Positions 10,960 to 29,660 of a DNA stretch of 64,000 nt are shown here, piece by piece. The position numbers and the translations under genes are program-made. The notes beneath the pieces were generated by a model. That model saw only the letters and a list, made by a program, of their open reading frames with translations, made no database searches and was not told the origin of the DNA. This DNA comes from Paralichthys olivaceus (taxonomy: Eukaryota > Chordata > Actinopteri > Pleuronectiformes > Paralichthyidae), in the NCBI RefSeq assembly GCF_024713975.1, contig NC_091099.1:17341501-17405500 (forward strand). The letters run 5' to 3'. Position 1 is the first letter of the stretch; each line of letters opens with the position of its first letter.

Positions 10960-11018
10960 TAATTAGAAACACAGAGAAAGTAGTCATCATATTGAGTTAT
11001 TGAGATATTTTTTTAGAA
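10960..11018. repeat. Minisatellite monomer (CAGAGAAAGTAGTCATCATATTGAG type)
   Basis: A monomer of the ~47-bp motif that also occurs at 11,610-11,750, 22,590-22,760 and 26,650-26,755. Here and at 26.7 kb it runs directly into the sequence AGAACAGGGGTC, the end of a hAT-like element, so the two places share the same junction. Confidence 0.75.
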
Positions 11019-11424
11019 CAGGGGTCTCCAACCTTTTTTGCACCACGGACCGATTTAATGTAGGCATTATTTTCACGGACCTGCCTTCAAGGTGCGGCAG
11101 ATAAGTACAGCAAAAATAAAATAACACGACCTGGGCTTGTTTCTCTGCAACGAGTTGGTCCCATCTAGGGGTGATGGGAGACAATGACACCCGCAGTGTG
11201 TTCCTTATGTCCAGTCTGCTCCGTAATTTTGTCTTGGTTGCTGTCACTGCAGAAAAGCCCGCTTCACAAAGATGGGATGTTGGAAATGGTAGCAGGGTTT
11301 TCAGTGCTCTTGTGGCTATGTCAGGAAATTCTGGCTTGGTTTTCATCCAGAACATCGGCAAGGTTGTTGTCTCAAACGTACGTTTAAGGTCACCGGTGAG
11401 CTGTCCTCCAAAATCCCTGCTCAT
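10987..11424 (-). pseudogene. hAT-family transposase C-terminal remnant
   Basis: The minus-strand frame of 145 codons contains the hAT C-terminal dimerisation signature: aromatic residues then PFPTSHLCEAGFSA, followed by TKTKLRSRLD and LRVSLSPI, as in the ZBED5/SCAND3-like domesticated group. The N-terminal BED finger and catalytic core are absent. On its left, 11,018-11,055 reads CAGGGGTCTCCAACC..., like a hAT terminal inverted repeat. The domain call is confident from the motif; the exact hAT subfamily is not. The frame is open but there is no gene structure around it, so it is a transposon fossil. Confidence 0.8.
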
Positions 11425-11609
11425 GTTTAAAACATGTCAAATATCCCTCTGTCCACTCGCCCCCCCCACAATTCCAGTTTGGCTTTGAATGCAGCTACTT
11501 TATCTGCCAACTTGAACACAGTTGTCATTTTCCCCTGAAGTGACAGATTGAGTGATAACACCAAAAGATATTAAGTTACTAACCTATTGAATGAGCAAGT
11601 CGCAATTTT

Positions 11610-11760: not shown

Positions 11761-12070
11761 GATACACCATACAATGGGCTGGGATTCGAGCTACCAATCT
11801 TCTGGTTTGTGGATGAAAAACAATATCAACAAAAACTCATCAAGCTTTTCTTGTGAGTTTTTATGAGTCCTACACACTGAACTTTTCAATACTGCAGTCG
11901 CTCAGGCTGATGGTTTCAATGTGATCAAAAGAAAGAACACCATTTACATCAGGCCCTATATTTGAGAAAAAGAGAAAAACTATGTCAGTACAGTCAATGA
12001 ATTTCACAACTCTTCAAAATTAAAAAAATGCTTGTGTACGATACAATCAGGTAAATTCAAAGTGTTGGAC

Positions 12071-12246
12071 TCAGTGTCGTAAACGTACGTGTCTTTTGTA
12101 GAAAAGGATGTAAGCATTTTTTTTAAAATGCTTACACATGGACTGCCCAGTTGTACGTGTGACAGTATTGTCATCGTAAATGACCCATTGGTCAGTGGGA
12201 TCATCTTCAGCTGCATCACGCTTGACCCCTGCACTAATGTAGTGTC
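12071..12246 (-). CDS. USP37-like last coding exon: His box
   Basis: Begins after acceptor TTTTAG and encodes GHYISAG, carrying the catalytic His, then WVIYDDN, the usual third-residue region (Asp or Asn). It ends FYKRHVRLRH and a TGA stop. The phase joins the previous exon through a split Gly codon. Confidence 0.88.
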
Positions 12247-13509
12247 CTAAAAGGAGACAAATCACTGTTACAAAAGGTGCTCTGATGTGTGGAGGTTATG
12301 AAAGGTAACAATTTTGTGACCAGGACCGTAACATCAAGACAAATATTTGCATTCTTTTATGGAGAGAGGAGAATTACGTAGCACTCAACTGGGCAGTTCC
12401 AGGGAAAATGACAGATGTAAAAAAAACACAGCAACTTCATTCAAATATCCTAATTTACAATAATAAAGAACTGAAAATACAACCATCTATCTATAATATG
12501 CCTGAGGACCTGATAGAGGACTGCAGAATGTGACAGTGTGACACTGTGTGATTAACTAACCTGAGTTTGCATTGGCTCCAAGGTGGCTGATGACACTCAC
12601 TAGACTGTACCAGCCCTGATCCTGAGAAGGCAATGGGTAAGAACTGTTAGTGAAAGTCCCTCACATAAAACCCCAGTACACATTTACCAAATGTTGACTT
12701 TTTACTTGGAGTTAGGTGAGTTTTTTTCTTACCTGGGTGGACGAGATAGTCAGCTCCCTGGAAATATTGATCGGGTCGTGAAGTTTCTTCGGGGTAAAAA
12801 GCGGAGTGAAGCAAAAACGCTTCACGTGCAGGATCAAAATTCTGCAGACAAGAAATAGAAGAAAGATTATTTAATATTTTTGATTGATAAAATTACTCAA
12901 TTTCAATTTAGATGAAATGAACTGGTGAAAACATCATGAGGATTATTCTACATTAAATTTCTGCCAATAGATCCATCTCACCTAAATCTTACACACTGGA
13001 CCTTTAAAGTAAAATCGGTTTGAAACTACATACCATGAAACTAAAAGTAATCAATACTTGATTTTTATTGTGATGGAAAACCAAATAAGTGAGAGTCTGA
13101 GAATGAAATTTACACATTGTGAGGAAATGATTGTCCTTATCCTGTGAAAAATGTCAAGTAAACTTGATGTGTGATTAAGGAATAAAGTATCCGTTGTGAT
13201 CTAACTGTGGTGGATGTGATGCCACTTACCTGGGCAGGGTATCAAAGCTGTAGCACTGGGTGGAGTTTGTGCCACCACAGACACAATTGCATTCCAACTC
13301 TGTCTTCTGAAAAACAATACAGAGATGATATGTTATCAGTGATATACGGGGTGTGTGTGTGTGTCAGAGAGAGAGATAATTGTGGTCACATGGTTGTGAA
13401 TTAAAACTGAAAGACAAACAACGTCCAAACTTTGATGTGTCTCATTCACACCGACCAAAGACTCAAATGATAATATGCACAAATGGAGAGTACCATAATG
13501 AACTTTGTT

Positions 13510-13540
<31 letters not shown>

Positions 13541-16500
13541 TGATGGGATGACAGGACTGGACAGGGACAGACGTGACTCACCAGCAGGTAATTATCAAGC
13601 ATCTCTTTAACTGATTCTTGAGGTACCAGGTTCAGAGACAGGTTGTTGAAGACTTCCTCATTCATAGATCTCTGTCCACATCTGCAATATAAAACAATGT
13701 GCATGAAATTACAGACGCAATAAACAAGAATAAAATAAATGTGTTTTATCTTCATTGGGATTTACTTCATGCACGCCCGGGTGCTCTTCATCTTGAACAT
13801 CAGGTGCTTCTGGATGGGGCATACGTAGATGTCTGCCATACCGGGCAGTCCTGTAATCACGGGGCATAAACTTCGGATGTGATCCAGAAAGGACGTCAGA
13901 AATTCATGAGCATCCTGCAAAAGGAAAGACGCAGAGGGTTCAATGCAAGAGGAAAAACTATCAAGACGAAAAAGAAACAAGACAAACCTTCAAACTAGCC
14001 AACACACCTTCTGCCCCATGTCCAAGAACTCTGCATACCTCTTGCCCACTTCCATTTTGAAGGCAAAGAGGGCCTTGAGTTTGTTTCCATTATTAGGGGA
14101 GCGGTGACACCTCACTATGTTCATGAATGCACTGTAGAGGGTGAGAAAGAAAAAGGAAACCTCTGTTATCACCACTGACAAAAACACACACATCAGATTT
14201 GTGTTTGTTTGCGGTGTGTCGTGTACCTGAGAAATTCAGCTTCGGGATCCAACTCCCACATGTCTTTTAGAACCCTGATGTCTCTGGTGAACTCTGTCAG
14301 AGTGAGCACACTCTGGAGGATGGAGTTCATGTAGCAGATTTGACTGGGGTTTGGAAACCTGTCAAGGATGAAGGTGTTTGACAAAACAAGTTGAATTTAC
14401 AAAACTTGCATAAGTGAAAACATCAAGTGCTGAGGTTTTTCTAGAATTGAAGCTCGAGTATGTAATCAAACAGCCGGTGATCAATGATCAGCTGATTTGA
14501 TTTCTTGTGTGTGTGTGTTTATGCAGATTTACTCACCCAAGACTTTCCTCACAGTCCAAATCACTGCTGATGTCAGAGGAGGGACTCCCAGAAAATACAT
14601 GACTGGTAAGAGGAAGACACACACACACACACACACACACACGTCAGTAAACATGACAGACATGAGTGTAGCATTTATTCTCAATGAACCCTTTGCTGAC
14701 TTAAAGGTACGGTGTGTAGAATTTAGTGGTATCTAGTGTTGACGTTGCATGTCGCAGCTGAACACCCCTCACCTCTCTACCGGAGCTTTAAATCAGGATC
14801 TGTCTAATAAAATAATGACTAAACTGAACAAGATTACAATCTGATCAGACATCCAAACGCCAGTATGTGCTTCTACTATGGCCACAGTTCAGTTGGAAAT
14901 ATTGAGTTCTTGTTTACAGAACTCCTCCTGTTACTGTCTTTGGTTTTAAATGTCAACTTGTAAACTGTGTAGTGTGTAGTGATGTGTAATGAGTGTCTTT
15001 ACTTGTTGTTAGTCTGCTGAGAGGGACTCTGCTCCGCCTTCTTTGAGTTCTTTCCCACTTCATTCTGATGGAGGAAAAATAAAGTCTCATGGTTCAATAT
15101 TACAGTTACACACTTGTTTTGTGATGAACATGTCCACACTGGTGAATGTGTGGTTTATTTGAAGCTGTAAAACTCTGTGGGAGACTTACTTGTATGATGC
15201 TGAGATCTTTGAACTCTTGTACCCCGCTGTCTTTCACTATGTTCTGTCCAGCACATAGTTTTAAAGTTGCTGGAGTATTGGTGGAGTCACCTCTGTTGAC
15301 AGACACAAATACACTACAGTTCTCAATGTGGATAAAAATTCTCTTTAAAAAATGTATTTAAAATTTTTCTTTTTGATAAAATAATTAATCTTAAAAAATC
15401 TCCCTTGGTGGAAGAGTACATGTGTTTTCTTTTTTACCCTAACCTTTCATAGACTGTTTTACTTAGGTTAACCCGCAAATGTTCATGTGAGACTCAGCTT
15501 GCACAGAGATATCTGACAATCCTTTTTTTTGGTAGTGGAGGCAGGTACTGATCAATGATCAGCTGATTTGATTTCTTGTGTGTGTTTATGCAGATTTACT
15601 CACCTAAGACTGTCCTCACAGTCCAAATCACTGCTGATGTCGGAGGAGGGACTCCCAGAAAATACATGACTGGTAAGAGGAAGACACACACACACACGTC
15701 AGTAAACATGACAGACATGAGTGTAGCAGTTATTCTCAAGTGACACCCTTAGCTGACTTAAAGGTACAGTGTGTAAAATTTAGTGATATCTAGTGTTGAC
15801 GTTGCATGTTGCAGCTGAACACCCCTCACCTCACCCTCTCCTTCCAAACATGAAAAAGAACCTGTGGTACCTTCAGTTGTCATAAAAACTCAAAAGATGT
15901 TTAGTTTGTCCAGTCTGGACTAATGTAAAAAACATGGCCGCCTCCGTGGAGAGGGTCCCCTCGATGTAAATATAAGGTATTTAAATATAAAGGGTCTTTT
16001 CTGGTGTAAAGAAAACTACAGTTCATACAATTTAGATGAAACGAACTAGTGAAAACATCATGAAGATTATTGGACATTACATTTCTGCCAATAGATCCTT
16101 TCACCTAAATCTTACACACTGGAGCTTTAAATCAGGATCTGTCTGATAAAATAATGACTAAACTGAACAAGATTACAAATCTGATCAGACATCCAAACGC
16201 CAGTATGTGCTTCTACTATGGCCACAGTTCAGTTTGAAATACTGAGTTCTTGTTTACAGAACAAGTCTTTGGTTTTAAATGTCAACTTGTAAACTGTGTA
16301 GTGTGTAGTGATGTGTAATGAGTGTCTTTACTTGTTGTTAGTCTGCTGAGAGGGACTCTGCTCCGCCTTCTTTGAGTTCTTTCCCACTTCATTCTGATGG
16401 AGGAAAAATAAAGTCTCATGGTTCAATATTACAGTTACACACTTGTTTTGTGATGAACATGTCCACACTGGTGAATGTGTGGTTTATTTGAAGCTGTAAA

Positions 16501-19500
16501 ACTCTGTGGGAGACTTACTTGTATGATGCTGAGATCTTTGAACTCTTGTACCCCGCTGTCTTTCACTATGTTCTGTCCAGCACATAGTTTTAAAGTTGCT
16601 GGAGTATTGGTGGAGTCACCTCTGTTGACAGACACAAACACACTACAGTTCTCAATGTGGATAAAAATTCTCTTTTAAAAATGTATTTAAAATTTTTCTT
16701 TTTGATAAAATAATTAATCTTAAAAAATCTCCCTTGGTGGAAGAGTACATGTGTTTTCTTTGTTACCCTAAAATTTCATAGACTGTTTTACTTAGGTTAA
16801 CCCGCAAATGTTCATGTGAGACTCAGCTTGCACAGAGATATCTGACAATTCTTTTTTTTTGGTAGTGGAGGCAGGTGCTGATCAATGATCAGCTGATATG
16901 ATTTCTTGTGTGTGTGTGTTTATGCAGATTTACTCGCCTAAGACTGTCCTCACAGTCCAAATCACTGCTGATGTCAGAGGAGGGACTCCCAGCAAAGACA
17001 TGACTGGTAAGAGGAAGACACACACACGTCAGTAAACATGACAGACATGAGTGTAGCAGTTATTCTCAAGTGACACCCTTAGCTGACTTAAAGGTACAGT
17101 GTGTAGAATTTAGTGATATCTAGTGTTGACGTTGCATGTTGCAGCTGAACACCCCTCACCTCACCCTCTCCTTCCAAACATGAAAAAGAACCTGTGGTAC
17201 CTTCAGTTGTCATAAAAACTCAAAAGATGTTTAGTTTGTCCAGTCTGGACTAATGTAAAAACATGGCCGCCTCCGTGGAGAGGGTCCCCTCGATGTAAAT
17301 ATAAGGTATTTAAATATAAGGGTCTTTTCTGGTGTAAAGAAAACTACAGTTCATACAATTTAGATGAAACGAACTAGTGAAAACATCATGAGGATTATTG
17401 GACATTACATTTCTGCCAATAGATCCTTTCACCTAAATCTTACACACTGGAGCTTTAAATCAGGATCTGTCTGATAAAATATTGACTAAACTGAACAAGA
17501 TTACAATCTGATCAGACATCCAAACGCCAGTATGTGCTTCTACTATGGCCACAGTTCAGTTGGAAATATTGAGTTCTTGTTTACAGAACTCCTCCTGTTA
17601 CTGTCTTTGGTTTTAAATGTCAACTTGTAAACTGTGTAGTGTGTAGTGATGTGTAATGAGTGTCTTTACTTGTTAGTCTGCTGAGAGGGACTCTGCTCCG
17701 CCTTCTTTGAGTTCTTTCCCACTTCATTCTGATGGAGGAAAAATAAAGTCTCATGGTTCAATATTACAGTTACACACTTGTTTTGTGATGAACATGTCCA
17801 CACTGGTGAATGTGTGGTTTATTTGAAGCTGTAAAACTCTGTGGGAGACTTACTTGTATGATGCTGAGATCTTTGAACTCTTGTATCCCGCTGTCTTTCA
17901 CTATGTTCTGTCCAGCACATAGTTTTAAAGTTGCTGGAGTATTGGTGGAGTCACCTCTGTTGACAGACACAAACACACTACAGTTCTCAATGTGGATAAA
18001 AATTCTCTTTAAAAAATGTATTTAAAATTTATCTTTTTGATAAAATAATTAATCTTAAAAAATCTCCCTTGGTGGAAGAGTACATGTGTTTTCTTTGTTA
18101 CCCTAACCTTTCATAGACTGTTTTACTTAGGTTAACCCGTAAATGTTCATGTGAGACTCAGCTTGCACAGAGATATCTGACAATTCTTTTTTTTGGTAGT
18201 GGAGGCAGGTGCTGATCAATGATCAGCTGATTTGATTTCTTGTGTGTGTGTGTTTATGCAGATTTACTCACCTAAGACTGTCCTCACAGTCCAAATCACT
18301 GCTGATGTCAGAGGAGGGACTCCCAGCAAAGACATGACTGGTAAGAGGAAGAATCACACACACACGTCAGTAAACATGACAGACATGAGTGTAGCAGTTA
18401 TTCTCAAGTGACACCCTTAGCTGACTTAAAGGTACAGTGTGTAGAATTTAGTGATATCTAGTGTTGACGTTGCATGTTGCAGCTGAACACCCCTCACCTC
18501 ACCCTCTCCTTCCAAACATGAAAAAGAACCTGTGGTACCTTCAGTTGTCATAAAAACTCAAAAGATGTTTAGTTTGTCCAGTCTGGACTAATGTAAAAAC
18601 ATGGCGGCCTCCGTGGAGAGAGTCCTCTCGATGTAAATATAAGGTATTTAAATATAAAGGGTCTTTTCTGGTGTAAAGAAAATTACAATTCATACAATTT
18701 AGATGAAACGAACTAGTGAAAACATCATGAGGATTATTGGACATTACATTTCTGCCAATAGATCCTTTCACCTAAATCTTACACACTGGAGCTTTAAATC
18801 AGGATCTGTCTGATAAAATAATGACTAAACTGAACAAGATTACAAATCTGATCAGACATCCAAACGCCAGTATGTGCTTCTACTATGGCCACAGTTCAGT
18901 TTGAAATACTGAGTTCTTGTTTACAGAACAAGTCTTTGGTTTTAAATGTCAACTTGTAAACTGTGTAGTGTGTAGTGATGTGTAATGAGTGTCTTTACTT
19001 GTTAGTCTGCTGAGAGGGACTCTGCTCCGCCTTCTTTAAGTTCTTTCCCACTTCATTCTGATGGAGGAAAAATAAAGTCTCATGGTTCAATATTACAGTT
19101 ACACACTTGTTTTGTGATGAACATGTCCACACTGGTGAATGTGTGGTTTATTTGAAGCTGTAAAACTCTGTGGGAGACTTACTTGTATGATGCTGAGATC
19201 TTTGAACTCTTGTACCCCGCTGTCTTTCACTATGTTCTGTCCAGCACATAGTTTTAAAGTTGCTGGAGTATTGGTGGAGTCACCTCTGTTGACAGACACA
19301 AACACACTACAGTTCTCAATGTGGATAAAAATTCTCTTTTAAAAATGTATTTAAAATTTTTCTTTTTGATAAAATAATTAATCTTAAAAAATCTCCCTTG
19401 GTGGAAGAGTAAATGTGTTTTCTTTGTTACCCTAACCTTTCATAGACTGTTTTACTTAGGTTAACCCGCAAATGTTCATGTGAGACTCAGCTTGCACAGA

Positions 19501-21506
19501 GATATCTGACAATTCTTTTTTTTTGGTAGTGGAGGCAGGTGCTGATCAATGATCAGCTGATTTGATTTCTTGTGTGTGTGTGTGTTTATGCAGATTTACT
19601 CGCCTAAGACTGTCCTCACAGTCCAAATCACTGCTGATGTCAGAGGAGGGACTCCCAGCAAAGACATGACTGGTAAGAGGAAGACACACACACGTCAGTA
19701 AACATGACAGACATGAGTGTAGCAGTTATTCTCAAGTGACACCCTTAGCTGACTTAAAGGTACAGTGTGTAGAATTTAGTGATATCTAGTGTTGACGTTG
19801 CATGTTGCAGCTGAACACCCCTCACCTCACCCTCTCCTTCCAAACATGAAAAAGAACCTGTGGTACCTTCAGTTGTCATAAAAACTCAAAAGGTGTTTAG
19901 TTTGTCCAGTCTGGACTAATGTAAAAACATGGCCGCCTCCGTGGAGAGGGTCCCCTCGATGTAAATATAAGGTATTTAAATATAAGGGTCTTTTCTGGTG
20001 TAAAGAAAACTACAGTTCATACAATTTAGATGAAACGAACTAGTGAAAACATCATGAGGATTATTGGACATTACATTTCTGCCAATAGATCCTTTCACCT
20101 AAATCTTAACACACTGGAGCTTTAAATCAGGATCTGTCTGATAAAATAATGACTAAACTGAACAATATTACAAATCTGATCAGACATCCAAACGCCAGTA
20201 TGTGCTTCTACTATGGCCACAGTTCAGTTGGAAATATTGAGTTCTTGTTTACAGAACTCCTCCTGTTACTGTCTTTGGTTTTAAATGTCAACTTGTAAAC
20301 TGTGTAGTGTGTAGTGATGTGTAATGAGTGTCTTTACTTGTTGTTAGTCTGCTGAGAGGGACTCTGCTCCACCTTCTTTGAGTTCTTTCCCACTTCATTC
20401 TGATGGAGGTAAAATAAAGTCTCATGGTTCAATATTACAGTTACACACTTGTTTTGTGATGAACATGTCCACACTGGTGAATGTGTGGTTTATTTGAAGC
20501 TGTAAAACTCTGTGGGAGACTTACTTGTATGATGCTGAGATCTTTGAACTCTTGTACCCCGCTGTCTTTCACTATGTTCTGTCCAGCACATAGTTTTAAA
20601 GTTGCTGGAGTATTGGTGGAGTCACCTCTGTTGACAGACACAAACACACTACAGTTCTCAATGTGGATAAAAATTATCTTTTAAAAATGTATTTAAAATT
20701 TTGGTTAACCCGTATATGTTCATGTGAGACTCAGCTTGCACAGAGATATCTGACAATCCTTTTTTTTATTAGTGGTGGCAGGCAGTCTTTCACTTACCTC
20801 TTGTGTGAGGCGAAGCTTCTTCCTTTGTCAACTGTTTTTGGAAAAGTTTTTTTCTCCTGTAGAGTAAAAACAAATTTCATGCAGTTGAATTGTCCAATAT
20901 TATAAAAGAATATATATCTTATTAACTTCTAAAATCTATTCAATGTGAAACCTTACCACTGGTGTACCGAAGAGTCGGTCATACCAAGATGTCTGTCTGA
21001 TCGGCTTGTGAGTGACAGTCTTGATGGCTGAGGGATTGTCTTTTTTGATGTCCTCTTTCGGTCTCTTCTTAAATAGCTTTTTAGTTTTTTCGATGAAGAG
21101 TTTATGCCAAGTAGTCTGTCTGATCGCCTGGTCAGTGACAGTCTTGATGGCTGAGGGATTGTCTTTTTTGATGTCCTCTTTCGGTCTCTTCTTAAATAGC
21201 TTTTTAGTTTTTTCGATGAAGAGTTTATACCAAGTAGTCTGTCTGACCGCCTGGTCAGTGACAGTCTTGATGTCTAAGGAATTGTGATTTCTGATGTCCT
21301 CTTTCGGTGTCTTCTTACGTAGCTTTTTAGTCTTTCCAGTAAAGAGAGGTTCATGCCTAGATGTCTCTCTGATTGCCTGGTCAGTGACAGTCTTGATGGC
21401 TGAGGGACCGTCTTTGTTGACGTCCTCTTTCCGTCCACTATTATGTAGGTTTTTATTTCTCACTGCTTCTGTGGTTGTAGCTGCTGGAACAATTGTGGAG
21501 TCATCT
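12071..21506 (-). CDS. USP37-like ubiquitin-specific protease with tandem-amplified exons (5' end missing)
   Basis: Removes ubiquitin from substrates, acting as a cysteine isopeptidase of the USP family. Exons in transcript order: 20957-21506, 20798-20856; then five triplets 20525-20627/20338-20399/19604-19669, 19183-19285/18999-19057/18272-18337, 17854-17956/17670-17728/16938-17003, 16519-16621/16332-16393/15604-15669, 15190-15292/15003-15064/14537-14602; then catalytic exons 14227-14358, 14008-14131, 13766-13914, 13582-13681, 13230-13306, 12733-12841, 12561-12621, 12071-12246. They sum to 2,686 nt and hold one frame throughout (894 codons and a stop after one phase nucleotide). The Cys box (ICYMNS), the middle finger region, the LILHVKRF strand and the His box (GHYIS, then YDDN) are all present, so the protease could be active. 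The order and motifs resemble USP37/26/29. No ATG precedes the first exon, so at least one upstream exon is missing from my model. Confidence 0.82.
12561..12621 (-). CDS. USP37-like exon before the His box
   Basis: Twenty codons (YSLVSVISHLG...) plus one base. Acceptor CTTCTCAG, donor GTTAGT. This is the conserved strand leading into the catalytic His in the USP37 group. Confidence 0.87.
12733..12841 (-). CDS. USP37-like exon, LILHVKRF strand
   Basis: Encodes ILILHVKRFCF..., the USP motif usually seen as LILHLKRF, over 36 codons. Acceptor TCTGCAG, donor GTAAGA. Its first base completes an Arg codon left open by the previous exon. Confidence 0.9.
12903..13009. mobile_element. MITE fragment between protease exons
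   Basis: Right-hand portion of the element found in the cassette array (GATGAAATGAACTGGTGAAA through CACACTGGACCTTTAAAG). Further fragments lie at 26,955-27,025 and 28,418-28,457 in the dead copy. Confidence 0.7.
13230..13306 (-). CDS. USP37-like exon, Cys-rich finger
   Basis: Encodes ELECNCVCGGTNST... and ends FDTLPR. This corresponds to the USP37 region with CEKCGGK before LPRVLILHLKR, so it probably belongs to the zinc-ribbon-like finger. 77 nt; the paralogous exon at 27,206-27,283 has one extra base. Confidence 0.88.
13582..13681 (-). CDS. USP37-like exon, palm/finger segment
   Basis: Encodes CGQRSMNEEVFNNLSLNLVP..., matching the family segment in which a Cys pair is followed by a FNDLSIDLP-like strand. 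Acceptor ATTGCAG, donor GTGAGT; 33 codons plus one leading base. Confidence 0.88.
13766..13914 (-). CDS. USP37-like exon, DAHEF box
   Basis: Starts exactly at the codons for DAHEFLTSFLD, the family's ubiquitin-tail groove motif (NDAHEFL in USP37), and runs to KMKSTRACMK. 49 codons plus two bases; acceptor TTTGCAG, donor GTAAAT. Confidence 0.9.
14008..14131 (-). CDS. USP37-like exon after the Cys box
   Basis: Encodes AFMNIVRCHRSPNNGNKLKA... ending EFLDMGQK, the helical segment between the Cys and DAHEF boxes. 41 codons plus one leading base; acceptor CTCTACAG, donor GTGTGT. Confidence 0.86.
14227..14358 (-). CDS. USP37-like exon, catalytic Cys box
   Basis: Encodes FPNPSQICYMNSILQSVLTL. The Cys before YMN is the nucleophile position of USP enzymes (usual form NLGNTCYMN). 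The first base completes a Gly codon opened by the last cassette exon (GG|G). Acceptor CTTGACAG, donor GTACAC. This is where the tandem-cassette region joins the protease domain. Confidence 0.9.
14537..15292 (-). CDS. Cassette unit 1 (exons A, B, C) next to the protease domain
   Basis: A 15,190-15,292, B 15,003-15,064, C 14,537-14,602. A encodes GDSTNTPATLKL... to DLSIIQ, B encodes NEVGKNSKKAEQSPSQ..., C encodes HVFSGSPSSDISSDLDCEES. C ends GG, making Gly with the protease exon; the C exons of the other units end AG, making Arg with the next A exon. Confidence 0.82.
15604..16621 (-). CDS. Cassette unit 2 (exons A, B, C)
   Basis: A 16,519-16,621, B 16,332-16,393, C 15,604-15,669. Acceptors GTCAACAG, TCCATCAG and TTACCAG; donors GTAAGT, GTAAAG and GTGAGT. 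The A exon is identical in protein to units 1, 4 and 5. Confidence 0.82.
15758..16130. mobile_element. Inverted-repeat MITE in cassette unit 2
   Basis: Starts TTAAAGGTACAGTGTGTAAA and ends TACACACTGGAGCTTTAA, so its ends are inverted copies of AAAGsTCCAGTGTGTA. It has no coding capacity. The same element sits at 17,088-17,459, 18,426-18,798 and 19,754-20,126, and internally deleted at 14,701-14,793, so it was present before the array expanded. Confidence 0.8.
16938..17956 (-). CDS. Cassette unit 3 (exons A, B, C; GC donor)
   Basis: A 17,854-17,956, B 17,670-17,728, C 16,938-17,003. B lacks one Asn codon at its 3' end (59 nt, still in frame). A has Ile for Val in DSGVQEF. The donor after C is GCGAGT rather than GTGAGT, a permitted but rarer GC-AG border. 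C has HVFAGSPS where units 1 and 2 have HVFSGSPS. Confidence 0.78.
18272..19285 (-). CDS. Cassette unit 4 (exons A, B, C)
   Basis: A 19,183-19,285, B 18,999-19,057, C 18,272-18,337. B is the short 59-nt form and its KKAE segment is altered (ctttaag on the plus strand, Leu for Lys-Glu context change). C has a normal GTGAGT donor. Confidence 0.78.
19604..20627 (-). CDS. Cassette unit 5 (exons A, B, C; GC donor)
   Basis: A 20,525-20,627, B 20,338-20,399, C 19,604-19,669. This is the first unit in transcript order and receives exon 20,798-20,856. B is the long form with Val for Ala in KKAEQ. The donor after C is GCGAGT, as in unit 3. Confidence 0.78.
20798..20856 (-). CDS. USP37-like upstream exon B'
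   Basis: Encodes EKKTFPKTVDKGRSFASHK plus two bases that form Arg with the A exon of unit 5. It starts in phase 0 and ends in phase 2, the same borders as the B exons, though the B-to-C step is skipped here. Acceptor TCTACAG, donor GTAAGT. Confidence 0.72.
20957..21506 (-). CDS. USP37-like large upstream exon A' with 41-residue internal repeats
   Basis: 183 codons from acceptor GTCAGCAG to donor GTAAGG. It opens DDSTIVPAA, resembling the cassette exon opening GDSTNTPAT, and shares the acceptor context GTTTGTGTCTGTCA. The body is about three copies plus a part copy of a 41-residue unit containing SAIKTVTDQAIRQTTW, then LFIEKTKKLFKKRPKEDIKK. It is strongly basic and probably disordered or coiled. 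Two of the 123-bp units at 21,013-21,260 are nearly identical. I do not recognise the repeat. Confidence 0.72.
21013..21400 (-). repeat. 123-bp coding tandem repeat inside exon A'
   Basis: Period 123 bp (41 codons), about three copies, marked by TCAGTGACAGTCTTGATG recurring near 21,013, 21,134, 21,257 and 21,380. The outer copies are more diverged than the central pair, suggesting stepwise growth. Confidence 0.88.
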
Positions 21507-21823
21507 CTGCTGACAGACACAAACACACCTGCTGATTATTCTTATTCTACTTTGAACAAAGTTCTGGCTGTTGATAAAATCTCTTTTTAAAAGGACAAAT
21601 CAACTCAAACCAGACCTTATTCTCACAGAGTGAAAGCAGTCGCAATTGGGTCTCAAAGCTTGAGTTTACGCAACCTCTAATTTTTAACGATAACAATACA
21701 ACCATAATCTAGCACAGATGTGATGAGCGCTACTTTCGTTTTTTTCAGTGACAACCTGCTTGTTCCCCATTCTGACCCTGTTAGACATATCATCACATTT
21801 ATTACAGGAGAATACTTCTCCTT

Positions 21824-22230: not shown

Positions 22231-22589
22231 TCAAGCACTATTGTTCTGGTTTTTCTATTTCCTATGTCAGTGTAATGTTATTTTGTTCTTACCCTCTAAG
22301 TTTCTCACTTCTGCTCTTGAAAAGATTAGCGATGCTTAATAGAAAAGATTTCATGGTTAAACGTTGATTTGAGTTGAGTTTGCTGAAAAATATTTATCTG
22401 GCAACCTAAAGTTTATCTTTCTTCTTTGTGGCAACCCATGATAAGGGGCATTACTGCATTCCTTTATTCTTTCATTCAGTTGCTTTGTGGGTAGCCATAA
22501 AGCCAACATCATAGGCAGCACATTCTTCAGTTTAAAGGCTGCCAGTAGATCAATCCTATAGTTCAGTGTATTTGCTGAATTCTTTCATC

Positions 22590-22880: not shown

Positions 22881-23682
22881 ACAAACAATATCAACAAAAA
22901 CTCATCAAGCTGTTCTTGTGAGTTTTTATGAGTCCTACACACTGAACCTTTCAATACTGCAGTCGCTCAGGCTGATGGTTTCAATGTGATCAAAAGAAAG
23001 AACACCATTTACATCAGGCCCTATATTTGAGAAAAAGAGAAAAACTATGTCAGTACAGTCAATGAATTTCACAACTCTTCAAAATTAAAAAAAATGCTTG
23101 TGTACGATACAATCAGGTAAATTCAAAGTGTTGGACTCAGTGTCGTAAACTTACGTGTCTTTTGTAGAAAAGGATGTAAGCATTTTTTTAAAAATGGTTA
23201 TACATGGACTGCCCAGTTGTACGTGTGACAGTATTGTCATCGTAAATGACCCATTGGTCAGTGGGATCATCTTCAGCTGCATCACGCTTGACCCCTGCAC
23301 TAATGTAGTGTCCTAAAAGGAGACAAATCACTGTTACAAAAGGTGCTCTGATGTGTGGAGGTTATGAAAGGTAACAATTTTGTGACCAGGACCGTAACAT
23401 CAAGACAAATATTTGCATTCTTTTATGGAGAGAGGAGAATTACGTAGCACTCAACTGGGCAGTTCCAGGGAAAATGACAGATGTAAAAAAAACCACAGCA
23501 AATTCATTCAAATATCCTAATTTACAATAATAAAGAACTGAAAATACAACCATCTATCTATAATATGCCTGAGGACCTGAATGTGTGACACTGTGTGATT
23601 AACTAACCTGAGTTTGCATTGGATCCAAGGTGGCTGATGACACTCACTAGAGAAGGCAATGGGTAACAACTGTTAGTGAAAG

Positions 23683-25086
23683 TCCCTCACATAAAACCCC
23701 AGAACACATTTACCAAATGTTGACTTTTTACTTGCACGTGATCGTAATCTCAGTAATTGCTGGATATGTCAACACATGCCAGCATCAATACACTCTTCAA
23801 TGTTTAATCCAATCCCATTCAATAAAGCCGACTACGAAATGTTCAATTGGAATGACCTTGCTTCAAGATTCAAAGATGAGGCAAACGATTGCTACACTCC
23901 AACCTACCACGTAGACTTTGCAAGGTCCACCCAAAATGCAGACATCGCTCTATACGTCGCTAAAACAGTTAATGACCAATATCTGCCGAGCGGATTTAAT
24001 TGCACCACACTGCTCCGCGTCGCTCATATGCAAATGTACGTAGAGATAAGTTTCAATTATCAAGTCCAAATAATACTGGCTCAGACAAATGGTTCAAAAC
24101 CTTCTGAACACCAGGTGTGTGTTCCCGAGCCATATTCTACCAGTATTCTGGTTGAAGCTTTAGTATATGTGCAACCATGGTTTGGCACTAGGTCCATAGG
24201 TTCAGTTAAAATACAGATGCGTAACTGTTCAGATCCCCAGCAGAGTGAACAAACACCCGAACGAGATTGCCGAACCTACGTGCCCCCTGTATCCATTCAG
24301 GAGCTGCATAATGTTTCTTTATGTTTCCGCGTAATAGGGAAAGGATATGAGGATTGGGGACAGAGCAGCTGTAACACTGTAATAATCCCTCACATAAAAC
24401 CCCAGAACACATTTACCAAATGTTGACTTTTTACTTGCACGTGATCGTAATCTCAGTAATTGCTGGATATGTCAACACATGCCAGCATCAATACACTCTT
24501 CAATGTTTAATCCAATCCCATTCAATAAAGCCGACTACGAAATGTTCAATTGGAATGACCTTGCTTCAAGATTCAAAGATGAGGCAAACGATTGCTACAC
24601 TCCAACCTACCACGTAGACTTTGCAAGGTCCACCCAAAATGCAGACATTGCTCTATACGTCGCTAAAACAGTTAATGACCAATATCTGCCGAGCGGATTT
24701 AATTGCACCACACTGCTCCGCGTCGCTCATATGCAAATGTACGTAGAGATAAGTTTCAATTATCGAGTCCAAATAATACTGGCTCAGACAAATGGTTCAA
24801 AACCTTCTGAACACCAGGTGTGTGTTCCCGAGCCATATTCTACCAGTATTCTGGTTGAAGCTTTAGTATATGTGCAACCATGGTTTGGCACTAGGTCCAT
24901 AGGTTCAGTTAAAATACAGATGCGTAACTGTTCAGCTCCCCAGCAGAGTGAACAAACACCCGAACGAGATTGCCGAACCTTCGTGCCCCCTGTATCCATT
25001 CAGGAGCTGCATAATGTTTCTTTATGTTTCCGCGTAATAGGGAAAGGATATGAGGATTCAGGACAGCAGCTGTAACACTGTAATAA
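23683..25086 (+). repeat. ~703-bp direct tandem duplication within the env block
   Basis: 23,683-24,385 and 24,386-25,086 are nearly identical. The duplicated piece includes about 50 bp of the protease-gene intron (TCCCTCACATAAAACCCC onward) at its left edge, so duplication followed the joining of env to the host sequence. The second copy differs by a two-base loss near 25,065. Confidence 0.92.
23776..24426 (+). pseudogene. Endogenous retrovirus Env surface-subunit remnant, copy 1
   Basis: A 216-codon frame with many N-x-S/T sites (for example near FNCTT and HNVSL) and spaced Cys residues, continuous in style with the Env stretch that follows. The 3' end is cut by the duplication junction, and the last codons are host intron. 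A hydrophobic leader-like stretch at 23,717-23,775 lies in another frame, so the N-terminus is also broken. No gag, pol or paired LTRs were seen. Identification as surface subunit rests on its position before the transmembrane-subunit remnant. Confidence 0.68.
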
Positions 25087-25645
25087 ATGTCACTCTAAAG
25101 CAGTCCCCACTACCTGAGAGAGTGTATCTAGTTTGTGGAGAACAGGCCTATCGTTGCATGCTAATGAAGAGTTGCATGGTGTCTGTTATTTAGCGTATCT
25201 AATTCCCATGATCAGAGAGATAGAATCCGCAGAAATAGCCTTGCTGTATCCTCCACTACACAGACACAGAAGGGAAATTACTCCAGCTCAAGAAGTATCC
25301 AGCCTCCTTTTTCCTTGGTATGATATGTATACATCCCAGCAGGAACTTAAGTCTCTATCTAAAGTCTTAGAGAGGCATCTTAATGTCTCATGTAGAGCTG
25401 AATTGGCTGAAAATAAAGAGTTGCAGGAAGTCAAAATAGTGGCCTTACAGAACCGCATGGCACTTGATCTCCTGTTGGCAGCGCCAGGGGGAACCTGTAA
25501 ACTTATAGTTACTGAATGTTGCTCCTACATCTCTGACGCAACAGCTGAAGTCCTAGACATGGCACATGACACAGCAGGAGGCATCAAAGAATTACATGAT
25601 AATCATTGTTTCACTTTTGGGAACTTTTCAGGTGTCTTTGGGTGA
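24479..25645 (+). pseudogene. Endogenous retrovirus Env remnant, copy 2 with transmembrane-subunit part
   Basis: Repeats the surface-subunit frame to 25,075, where a two-base loss relative to copy 1 shifts it into a stop. The transmembrane-subunit part follows in a frame open at 25,133-25,645 with further stops before 25,200. It has an Arg-rich cleavage-like site (HRHRRE) near 25,262, a LQNRMALD-type immunosuppressive-region match and a C-x6-C-C motif at 25,496-25,522, typical of gamma/delta-type Env. A TGA at 25,643 precedes a hydrophobic anchor-like stretch (to about 25,760). It cannot encode a full membrane Env as it stands. Confidence 0.8.
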
Positions 25646-25809
25646 TGGGGGTCTGGGCTGGTCAAATTCTTAACTACCCTTGTTGTCACACTTCTCCTGC
25701 TCATCCTCTTCTGTTCATGTTTGGTTTCAATAATCAAGATGATACTTAATCTTGCACCTGTCTCGAGTAGAGTAGTTAGCGCAGGGTCTTTTTGTTTCAC
25801 TTTTAGTTG

Positions 25810-26640
25810 AATAAGTGACATTTTTGGCCTCTGTCAGTAGTTGCATGTGATCTGTGACCTCCGTCATGAGCTCCTTTAATGCCTTGGTTTTTGAGGGGAT
25901 CATCATAAAATAAAGGTTTGCTTTATAAATGCCCTTGTTGGCCAGAAGACGGAACTCATGGGCACATGTAAGAAGTGATAAGGGTGGTACAAAAAAGGGG
26001 TTTTCATTTACCTCACTGATTGTATGAATTGATCTTAACTGAATGACAAGTTCAAAGAATAATGTTTGTGAATTTGTGGTTTTTTTTTAAAAGTCATTCA
26101 AATGTTTTTGATTTGTTGTTTAATTGAGAAGGATTTTGTAATGCATGATGTTGGATCTGTTCTGAAGGGGCTCCGGGCAATCTGAAAATGTATTAATTAA
26201 GGGTAATGGTAATCAGGATTGATCTTATGATCAATGAGGCGATTGTTATGGAATTTTCATAGACACTGTCTCTTGTCCTCTCTGGGGCAGAGTGCAACAG
26301 GCTGTTGTGTTTGGGAAGTGCGAGAGCTTGGCGAAGGTCAAAGCCTTCACTCCCTAGACATCACAGATATGAGACTGCGTAAGCACGCACTACTGTCTCC
26401 ATAACTAGAAAATACATTTGATTGTTTAGGAACAAGCACACCCATAGATTAAATGATCTGTTGGGGTTTAAAGTGTGACTGCAGGAAAGCAGACTTCACA
26501 ATATGAGAGAGCATCATGCACAGATGTTGTATGGATGAATTCTGATTTTCTCTTTGGCCAAGCTCAATAAATATTTCAGCATAAGACGTCAAAGGGTTCC
26601 TGAACGCTTTCTTCATTGATGAGTTGACCATTGGTCCGCA
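25810..26640. other. Unassigned sequence right of the env remnant
   Basis: AT-rich sequence without a recognisable protein. It may hold viral non-coding DNA, since it follows the Env stop and includes an A6G4 purine run near 25,993, but I could not find paired LTR ends. The minus-strand frame at 26,449-26,661 was not recognised. Confidence 0.4.
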
Positions 26641-26649
26641 GATTTTCCA

Positions 26650-26790
26650 CCACAGAGACAAAGAGAAAGTTAGTCATCATATTAAGTTAGTAAGATATTC
26701 ATTACAGACACAGACAAAGTAGTCATCATATTAACTAATTAAGATATTTTTTAGAACAGGGGTCCCCAACGTTTTAGGGGGAGTTAGGTG
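26650..26790. repeat. Minisatellite monomers and hAT terminus at the right edge of the insert
   Basis: Two monomers of the protease-flank minisatellite lead into AGAACAGGGGTCCCCAAC, the same junction seen at 11,010-11,030 beyond the live gene. The protease paralogue resumes at about 26,781. The block is therefore bounded on the right by sequence from a protease-gene 3' flank. Confidence 0.72.
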
Positions 26791-27311
26791 GGGTTTTTTC
26801 TTACCTGGGTGGACGAGATAATCAGCTCCCTGGAAATATTGATCGGGTTGAGAAGTTTCTTCGGGGTAAAAAGCGGAGTGAAGCAAAAATGCTTCACGTG
26901 CAGGATCAAAATTCTGCAGACAAGAAATAGAGGAAAGATTGTTTAATATTTTTGAGAAGACCCCCTCGATGTAAAGAAAACTACAATTCATACAATTTAG
27001 ATGAAATGAACTGGTGAAAACATCATTACTTAATCAATACTTGATTTTTATTGTGATGGATAACCAAATAAGTGAGAGTCTGAGAATGAAATTTACACAT
27101 TGTGAGGATTGTCCTTATCCTGTGAAAAATGTCAAGTAAACTTGATGTGTGATTAAGGAATAAAGTATCCGTTGTGATCTAACTGGTGGATGTGATGCCA
27201 CTTACCTGGGCAGGGTATCAAAGCTGTAGCACTGGGTGGTAGTTTGTGCCACCACAGACACAATTGCATTCCAACTCTGTCTCCTGAAAAACAATACAGA
27301 GATGATATGTT

Positions 27312-27556
27312 ATATTTAATTATTATTTAATTTTTCACTGTTACTGTCAAATTTGCACAATCCTCACCTTATTCACCTCATTCGCCTTGTTTCTGCCTTA
27401 TTTTTAACATGTTCATAGCCTTATTGTATTTTATGTAAATATTGTATTCTTATGTAAATTTGGTCGGTATTCCAGAAAGGACAGCACAAGAATTTCAATT
27501 CATAGGGAAACGTGTTCTCTGTGTATTTGACAATAAAATCTTTGAATCTTGAATCT
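27312..27556 (+). mobile_element. 3' end of a non-LTR retroelement
   Basis: About 245 bp absent from the live copy, inserted between GATGATATGTTAT and the (TG)n tract. It ends GACAATAAAATC followed by repeats of TTGAATC, the short terminal repeat typical of fish LINE or SINE 3' ends. Confidence 0.65.
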
Positions 27557-27567
27557 ATGATGAACTT

Positions 27568-27619
<52 letters not shown>
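27568..27619. repeat. (TG)n microsatellite in the dead copy
   Basis: About 25 TG units; the equivalent tract in the live copy at 13,514-13,540 is half as long. Confidence 0.95.
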
Positions 27620-28385
27620 GATGGGATGACAGGACTGGACAGGGACAGACGTGACTCACCAGCAGGTAATTATCAAGCATCTCTTTAACTGATTCTTGAG
27701 GTACCAGGTTCAGAGACAGGTTGTTGAAGACTTCCTCATTCATAGATCTCTGTCCACATCTGCAATATAAAACAATGTGCATGAAATTACAGACGCAATA
27801 AACAAGAATAAAATAAATGTGTTTTATCTTCATTGGGATTTACTCCATGCACGCCCGGGTGCTCTTCATCTTGAACATCAGGTGCTTCTGGATGGGGCAT
27901 ACGTAGATGTCTGCCATACCGGGCAGTCCTGTAATCACGGGGCATAAACTTCGGATGTGATCCAGAAAGGACGTCAGAAATTCATGAGCATCCTGCAAAA
28001 GGAAAGACGCAGAGGGTTCAATGCACAGAGGAAAAACTATCAAGACGAAAAAGAAACAAGACAAACCTTCAAACTAGCCAACACACCTTCTGCCCCATGT
28101 CCAAGAACTCTGCATACCTCTTGCCCACTTCCATTTTGAAGGCAAAGAGGGCCTTGAGTTTGTTTCCATTATTAGGGGAGCGGTGACACCTCACTATGTT
28201 CATGAATGCACTGTAGAGGGTGAGAAAGAAATAGGAAACCTCTGTTATCACCACTGACAAAAACACACACATCAGATTTGTGTTTGTTTGCGGTGTGTCG
28301 TGTACCTGAGAAATTCAGCTTCGGGATCCAACTCCCACATGTCTTTTAGAACCCTGATGTCTCTGGTGAACTCTGTCAGAGTGAG

Positions 28386-29660
28386 AATAGCATTTATTCT
28401 CAAGTGACACCCTTAGCTGACTTAAAGGTTCAGTGTGTAGAATTTAGTGATATCTACAAGGTGATATTTACCTGTATCCTTTTACTGTGTGGTTAAGATT
28501 TGCTGCAAGGAGTACACTTAACATTAAACATGTAGTACCAACATTGCAATCAAACTGTGATGTTTTATTTCCAGTGAGCAGGATTCAGATTGTAAATAAA
28601 GACACACTCTTCTCTGCAGAGTTAACACTAGTTTCACCACCTTTCAGTAAAACTACTACACATCTACCACACCCCTGTACTACTGACTCTGGGTTGTACT
28701 GAGCACTACGGTAAACAAAACATGTTCTTGCAATGTTAAGAAATACATTTTAAAGTTCTGGATCCAGATCCACGACAAAAACTCATCACTTACTAAGACA
28801 CTGTTCTAACATCCCACCAAATGTAATCAAACAGACAAACATAGCATTGTCCATTAAAAAAGACTCTGTTATGTTCACTGTCCTATTTCACTTCAGGTGC
28901 GTATTAATTTGGTGCATATGAAAGTGATTTTCCTCCATCCTCATCTACCTGAGCAAAACATTCCCCCTTCACATTTTCTCAAACTCTCCCTGAGCAACAA
29001 TCTCTCCACCTTCAGATCGCCTCACAAAACAATTTAAACATTCACTCTCTTCTGGGGCTACGGCCAGAATCCAAGAGGGAAAAAACCAGAGCAAACAGAA
29101 GGCTGCATACTTTCCGGCAAAACTTTACACAGTGGTAGAGAAGACGGCCTTGTTGAGGTGCCCACTTCAGCCGGAGGAGACGTTTGGCAAGAAGACCCTG
29201 CTCTGGTTCTGGGCCCAGGTTTATTGCATGTCACTTGATTTCTCAGACATGTCAGTGTTTTTTGCTGTCTGGCAAAAGTTGTTCATGTCCAACCTGTTGT
29301 GTAATTTCAGTAGCGTGCCCCAATTTTTAACTATAAAAACAGGCCACCAGAGGCCCATGTTACCTGGCCAAAGCAAATGTTAGATCCAAATATGGTGTCA
29401 CCTCACTTCCTGTAACTGCAGTGCAATGACTGAGTGATCAAAAGAGCAGAATAAGATGATCAAGTCAGAATTGAATCTTCAGCTGCTTCCAGTTTATTGG
29501 ACTCATCCTCTTATCAGAACTGCTCAGTCGCTCCCTCCCTCCTCTGACAAGCTCTCAATCATCCTCGGGGCTCCCTCCCTATCTCTCTCACTCACATCTC
29601 ACTCACCTCTCTCCCTCCCGTTGTCGTCCACTGCATGTACCTCAACACTTGAGACCCAGA
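28386..29660. other. Region between the protease pseudogene and ucma
   Basis: At 28,386 the dead protease exon jumps directly into MITE-flank sequence of the cassette array (CATTTATTCTCAAGTGACACCC), marking a deletion of the catalytic-Cys half exon and the cassettes. From about 28,470 on the sequence is single-copy and forms the upstream region of ucma. Confidence 0.6.
29332..29338 (+). promoter_or_regulatory. Candidate TATA box for ucma
   Basis: TATAAAA lies 336 bp upstream of the ucma start codon on the same strand. Transcription from about 29,362 would give a roughly 300-nt leader. It is a positional inference with no supporting transcript. Confidence 0.4.

Follow-up and report, generated by a model that had tools for sequence, protein, structure and literature searches.

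The amino-terminal tail of a deubiquitinase of the olive flounder (Paralichthys olivaceus) is very probably built from phase-2 exon cassettes, whole units of which would be gained and lost in frame by unequal exchange. The gene lies on the minus strand of the window, as we call the whole stretch of 64,000 nucleotides that was analysed, and is annotated as a member of the USP family. From the comparisons set out below, the tail ahead of the enzyme appears to have been lengthened and shortened in ready-made steps.

Organization of the cassette array

Five direct copies of the unit were found at positions 15006, 16335, 17670, 18999 and 20341 (spacing 1329, 1335, 1329 and 1342 bp), in an array that spans 14.4–20.7 kb on the minus strand and whose units are 96.9–99.4% identical to one another. 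Each unit consists of exons A (103 nt), B (62 or 59 nt) and C (66 nt), collectively ABC, and the phases read for all five cassettes bear out the claim of an earlier note on this DNA that every set is entered and left in phase 2 (coordinates in Table 1). The five copies and the exon sizes given there also stand, but the repeat length of about 1.33 kb does not extend to unit 5, which is shorter because some 280 bp of its B–C intron are missing. Each of the 15 cassette exons is preceded by an AG acceptor, and a GT donor follows all but exon C of units 1 and 3, where the donor is GC. Both near-identical whole-exon units and equal intron phase at their ends, the structural marks of an intragenic multi-exon tandem cassette array, were therefore found. 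Since each cassette has equal phase at both ends and its own splice sites, its gain or loss is harmless to the reading frame. In the most likely course of events, the long homologous introns of neighbouring units would permit unequal exchange that adds or removes entire cassettes. All five cassettes are presumably used in the protein; because the copies are near-identical, their open frames in themselves say little about use.

Table 1. Positions of the gene's parts and of a neighbouring gene copy in the window
Feature	Positions	Strand	Basis or remark
E1, first coding exon, 62 nt, ATG, leaves in phase 2	22293..22354	-	sequence; three NCBI models begin with identical residues
Exon N1, phase 2 in, phase 0 out, holds the 123-nt tandem repeat	20957..21509	-	acceptor to 21509 (NCBI models) or 21506 (earlier note)
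Minisatellite within exon N1, in frame, 3.7 copies of a 123-nt (41-aa) unit	20984..21435	-	tandem-repeat analysis
Exon N2, 59 nt, leaves in phase 2; closes the single two-exon N1–N2 cassette	20798..20856	-	splice model
Cassette 1: A 20627-20525, B 20399-20338 (62), C 19669-19604 (GC donor)	19604..20627	-	splice model, unit alignment
Cassette 2: A 19285-19183, B 19057-18999 (59), C 18337-18272; skipped in the X8 and X9 models	18272..19285	-	splice model, unit alignment
Cassette 3: A 17956-17854, B 17728-17670 (59), C 17003-16938 (GC donor)	16938..17956	-	splice model, unit alignment
Cassette 4: A 16621-16519, B 16393-16332 (62), C 15669-15604	15604..16621	-	splice model, unit alignment
Cassette 5: A 15292-15190, B 15064-15003 (62), C 14602-14537; about 280 bp absent from the B–C intron	14537..15292	-	splice model, unit alignment
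USP catalytic domain, exons U1–U8 (U1, which contains the Cys box, 14358-14227; U8 12246-12071, or ending at the donor after 12089)	12071..14358	-	Pfam UCH, E 2.2e-38 on P0001
Alternative short last coding exon, ends GLM then stop	11944..11955	-	the model using it reproduces P0002 and P0003 exactly
Second, decayed USP catalytic copy	23140..28409	-	802 bp at 99.4% identity; begins within U1, past the Cys box; beginning of U7 missing

Gene model and annotated isoforms

The 25 exons of the earlier model, running from 21506 to 12071, join in frame with zero internal stops and encode 894 residues. That this model closes with no frame error was thus upheld, but its two ends were not: 21506 is an acceptor and not a start, and the stop at 12071 is an alternative ending. 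A first exon, E1, had been overlooked (MKSFLLSIANLFKSRSEKLR, phase 2 out); it is present in all three NCBI models read, each of which uses a donor at 12089 joined to the short last coding exon. With cassette 2 omitted, splice models made from the window reproduce P0002 (isoform X9, 852 aa) and P0003 (isoform X8, 859 aa) letter for letter, while P0001 (isoform X3, 934 aa) has five cassettes and matches its splice model but for one residue fewer. At 16393–16332, in cassette 4, the genome encodes one N more than P0001, and no canonical splice was found to account for the difference. The three gene models compared, P0001 being the one read from a cluster of seven sequences, are predictions, from RefSeq to judge by their names, and may themselves have arisen from mis-mapping, since short reads place near-identical copies poorly.

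A further in-frame acceptor lies 21 nt upstream of every A exon and is used by P0001 in A1, A3 and A5, so that a cassette contributes either 76–77 or 83–84 residues. The 76–77 residues per copy of the earlier note are correct for the downstream acceptor and have to be raised to the higher figure for the upstream one.

The catalytic domain and family identity

Residues 628–928 of P0001 match the Pfam family UCH (PF00443) with 132.7 bits, far above the curated cut-off of 23.9. In a 28-row alignment C636 is nearly invariant and H880 invariant, and the YDD that follows W899 in P0001 aligns with the FND of USP2; we take C636, H880 and the YDD to represent the catalytic Cys, His and Asp/Asn positions of a USP. 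The UCH match and these residues confirm that an intact USP catalytic domain lies downstream of the cassettes, as had been claimed. By domain and residues the product of the gene is a USP deubiquitinase, and ubiquitin cleavage is predicted.

Six genes of the flounder genome, the window gene on contig C7 and five on contig C10 (g1–g5, below), have catalytic exons of 906 nt each, with no stop and no length change. The introns of the catalytic span differ by 12 indels between C7 and g3, 15 between C7 and g1 and seven between g1 and g3, a tally that leaves out one event labelled U8, which is an unequal alignment end. For C7–g1 and C7–g3, about 2–2.6 stops are expected under neutral change, and the probability of none is 0.07–0.13, which makes the absence of stops a weak indication.

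NCBI gives many relatives in percomorph fishes the name USP37-like, and rows of the 28-protein alignment are 33–71% identical to P0001. USP37 is marked by an N-terminal PH-like UCH_N domain (PF16674). No UCH_N match at E 0.01 was found in P0001, P0005 or P0009, so that these three proteins differ in this from USP37 proper, and the two UCH_N matches in the genome lie only at C10:20678049-20679543 (20.68 Mb), away from the clusters. USP37 itself was ruled out on these grounds.

The tail of P0001 contains zero Pfam families over the cut-off. Four weak matches inside the repeats, of which Nfu_N came nearest (26.7 against 27), were dismissed as chance, all four falling under their cut-offs; the protein collection lists Nfu_N for P0001. 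As the charge-hydropathy of the array is borderline, its disorder can only be presumed. The tail could serve as a flexible arm that sets the reach or the binding of the enzyme. An LSII core, which in our estimation resembles a SUMO-interacting motif, occurs in all seven ABC cassettes of the two loci compared, and the plaice cassette has YSIM instead. It seems unlikely to us that the interchangeable phase-2 cassettes form a length-tunable multivalent docking arm, with the number of LSII copies setting avidity for a modified target and with copy number polymorphic and under diversifying selection in an arms race.

Paralogues in the flounder genome

A DNA search of the flounder's own genome with a partial cassette found seven places, five of them in the window gene on C7 and two on C10 (at 91%). 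With the catalytic domain at least 61 exon-level matches were obtained, on C7, C10, C2 and, in one case, C12; this count is a lower bound because only the best candidates were scored. The relatives are clustered on three contigs. The C10 cluster (3,332,446 down to 3,288,465) holds the five genes g1–g5, each of which matches E1, N1, N2, C and U1–U8, and all of which retain a C exon ahead of the catalytic part. In the window gene, one N1–N2 cassette is combined with five ABC cassettes; g1 to g5 have 3, 3, 3, 2 and 2 copies of N1–N2 and 2, 0, 0, 0 and 0 of ABC. The length from E1 to U1 is 3916 and 3927 bp in g2 and g3 against 3124 and 3138 bp in g4 and g5, a difference of one N1–N2 cassette of about 800 bp. 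Catalytic spans of g2/g3 and g4/g5 differ by only 0.5–0.9%; since the shared upstream parts are only about 96–98% identical, the cassette change may predate the estimate from the catalytic span.

Length also varies by other means in this family. The 41-aa unit of the N1 minisatellite occurs in other copy numbers in the paralogues. On C2, where at least eight matches to the last exon were found (48% identity), one gene in the 10 kb read has a 489-aa open frame of 201-bp repeats, six or seven copies, upstream of the catalytic exons (L051 2756-4225, minus strand), which is a candidate exon. Extra pairs of U7 and U8 exons lie about 2 kb downstream of g2, g3 and g4 (L010, L011 and L012 of the C10 cluster).

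Cassettes in other species

Profiles of the two modules, N and ABC, were run on 81 fish homologues obtained in protein searches. Ten matched: seven flounder proteins (P0001–P0003 and P0005–P0008), two from plaice (P0009 and P0010) and, weakly, the unnamed protein P0039. P0009 has seven N matches, the first without its start, and one ABC match, while P0010 has two N matches and no ABC match. Thus one plaice model has a single ABC cassette and the other has none, whereas in flounder the cassette has multiplied. When residues 20–570 of P0005 were used as the query, a search of the 8000 candidates with the most words in common yielded seven proteins, every one of them from flounder. The comparison of the cassette protein with teleost homologues that the earlier note proposed accordingly yielded the modules in the plaice models and otherwise, among the 81 profiled, flounder proteins only plus the weak P0039.

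In P0009 two families reach their Pfam cut-off by whole-protein score (DTX3L_a-b, 27.6 against 27; DUF4123, 25.8 against 25.8), with no single stretch passing; both were taken as chance. Diagonal scoring of self-matches, with a looser Cys-box pattern, gave a score of at least 60 in 30 of 66 fish models, flounder models among them (of the 81, eight were set aside as short and seven had no pattern match); weak scores mean little here because shuffled versions of low-complexity icefish proteins scored up to 105. A search for internal repeats by self-BLASTP yielded no useful signal.

History of the array

Among units 1–4, ten of the 11 two-versus-two differences pair 1 with 3 against 2 with 4, one pairs 1 with 4 and none pairs 1 with 2. 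The differences were counted by eye, and three of the ten stand in neighbouring columns and may reflect a single event, in which case the count is eight of nine. This pattern indicates that a two-unit block was probably duplicated. Together with the differing counts in the paralogues and in plaice, it favours the proposal of the earlier note that the gene was lengthened by tandem duplication of a symmetric three-exon cassette, which has to be widened, however, since a second cassette type and minisatellites also lengthen the region.

The C7 units are 92.2–92.5% identical to C10 cassette 1 and 89.4–90.6% identical to C10 cassette 2, and the two C10 cassettes are 94.1% identical to each other. 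To judge from these identities, the C7 and C10 arrays either mostly grew after the loci separated or were homogenised. The A-to-C span of C10 cassette 1 equals that of C7 unit 1 (1036 bp), while in C10 cassette 2 it is 515 bp. These lengths and the distribution of a MITE-like insert suggest two ancestral unit types, which would predate the separation of the C7 and C10 loci. The insert, at 19749–20130 in the B–C intron of unit 1, has 22-nt inverted ends that are 86% complementary, and counterparts in other units; related sequence also occurs at 12904–13023.

Rates of change and alternative explanations

That the copy number is an assembly error, with units extra or missing, is highly improbable. 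Misassembly is frequent for near-identical tandem repeats, but each of units 1–4 has private differences, and the cassettes turn up again, in other numbers, both at the C10 locus of this assembly and, from a different genome, in a protein of plaice. We also regard it as improbable that the array, though real DNA, is mostly silent, the gene or its cassettes being in decay and the mRNA using few or none of them. Such decay would fit the equal variation of exon and intron sites in units 1–4 (6/228 and 29/1091), because of which the array itself gives no sign of purifying selection. It would also fit a one-ratio codon model for five C7 and two C10 cassettes, in which omega is 2.07 and not significantly above 1 (p 0.12), the omission of cassette 2 from two of the three isoform models read, and the decayed USP copy that adjoins the gene. 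Against this, the five C7 units, and C10 units that differ from them by about 8–10%, retain their splice sites and frames. Between the five C7 units and C10 cassette 1, the sole exon indel is one of 3 bp in B (units 2 and 3), whereas the introns show 5–7 indels of 1–279 bp (the five comparisons are not independent). The six sets of catalytic exons free of stops and length changes point the same way, if weakly. Gain and loss of whole cassettes is the reading that we prefer.

Compatible with the gain and loss of cassettes, and tentatively entertained here, is the idea that they belong to an adaptive, fast-evolving enzyme engaged in an arms race, in which coding change is favoured and cassette number selected. 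By the Nei–Gojobori method dN exceeds dS in all ten C7–C10 cassette comparisons (dN 0.110–0.145, dS 0.044–0.113) and in all five C7–C10 catalytic comparisons (0.086–0.093 against 0.054–0.073). Exons outpace introns in g1–g2 (47/906 against 25/1356, p 1.3e-5), in g1–g3 (45/906 against 24/1354, p 2.7e-5) and, weakly, in C7–g3 (70/906 against 74/1335, p 0.043), and the clustering of the relatives on three contigs is also in keeping with an arms race. On the other hand, C7–g1 (70/906 against 70/1232, p 0.063) and the cassette unit (25/231 against 81/1096, p 0.083) miss the 0.05 level, and omega is not significantly above 1 either in the cassettes or in the catalytic exons of five of the six genes, g4 being left out (1.44, p 0.17). 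Simulation of neutral change gave P of 0.003–0.07 for C7–g1, 0.04–0.33 for C7–g3, 0.08–0.38 for g1–g3 and 0.03–0.19 for three cassette comparisons, ranges that depend on the transition bias assumed. Divergence of C7 and C10 introns is 5.5–7.4%. Between g1 and g2–g5, dN is about equal to dS (0.052–0.054 and 0.043–0.054) and both exceed the introns, so that some of the excess could stem from mutation bias or gene conversion in introns. Overall, these comparisons describe fast coding evolution with the frame preserved, and positive selection is suggested.

Comparison with known systems

The type of mechanism is already known, and this family, with its two types of cassette, adds a new case of a known structure; what is unusual is that two kinds of cassette, together with minisatellites, turn over within a single enzyme family. 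Literature searches for a printed account of the flounder cassette-USP family found none among the matches listed. The repeat region of titin and the repeated ligand-binding domains of TGF-beta receptors have reportedly been treated in published work (PMC9142044 and PMC13187141, respectively). In LPA the kringle IV-2 cassette is a folded kringle domain, whereas the flounder cassette, of three exons and 1.33 kb, has no Pfam family over the cut-off in P0001, and its counts were compared between paralogues and species. Kringle IV type 2 of apolipoprotein(a) is similar in being a multi-exon cassette in tandem within one gene; in humans, the unit is of 5.5 kb with two exons and its copy number is estimated per person (PMC10584998). 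The triplicate region of human NEB comprises eight exons present three times in one gene, with variable copy number (PMC9109913), and thus likewise repeats a multi-exon block inside one gene. Nebulin differs in being a muscle protein with a larger block; the flounder array forms the tail of an enzyme, has a smaller unit and differs in number between recent gene copies. Coding minisatellites are represented in the family by the 123-nt repeat of exon N1 and the 201-bp repeat in the open frame upstream of the C2 relative, but the array repeats whole exons and introns and not part of one exon.

Systems that show a change in the number of exon cassettes between close relatives are few. Here a single genome offers six related genes with catalytic spans 0.5–7% apart and tails that contain two cassette types in differing numbers. 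An assayable enzyme stands behind these tails, which makes the effect of tail length on the deubiquitinase measurable, as are the rates at which arrays grow, shrink and are homogenised.

Neighbouring elements in the window

An ORF at 10987–11436 on the minus strand resembles, in our view, the C-terminal region of a hAT transposase; it gave zero Pfam matches at E 0.01. Part of the decayed second USP copy is covered by the NCBI model P0084 (231 aa). U6 and U7 of this copy are separated by some 3 kb of sequence that contains env-like ORFs on the opposite strand (23695–25645, plus); the last of these ORFs matches Pfam TLV_coat (E 1.4e-10). The first two have near-identical translations, as seen by eye, and lie in tandem about 700 bp apart.
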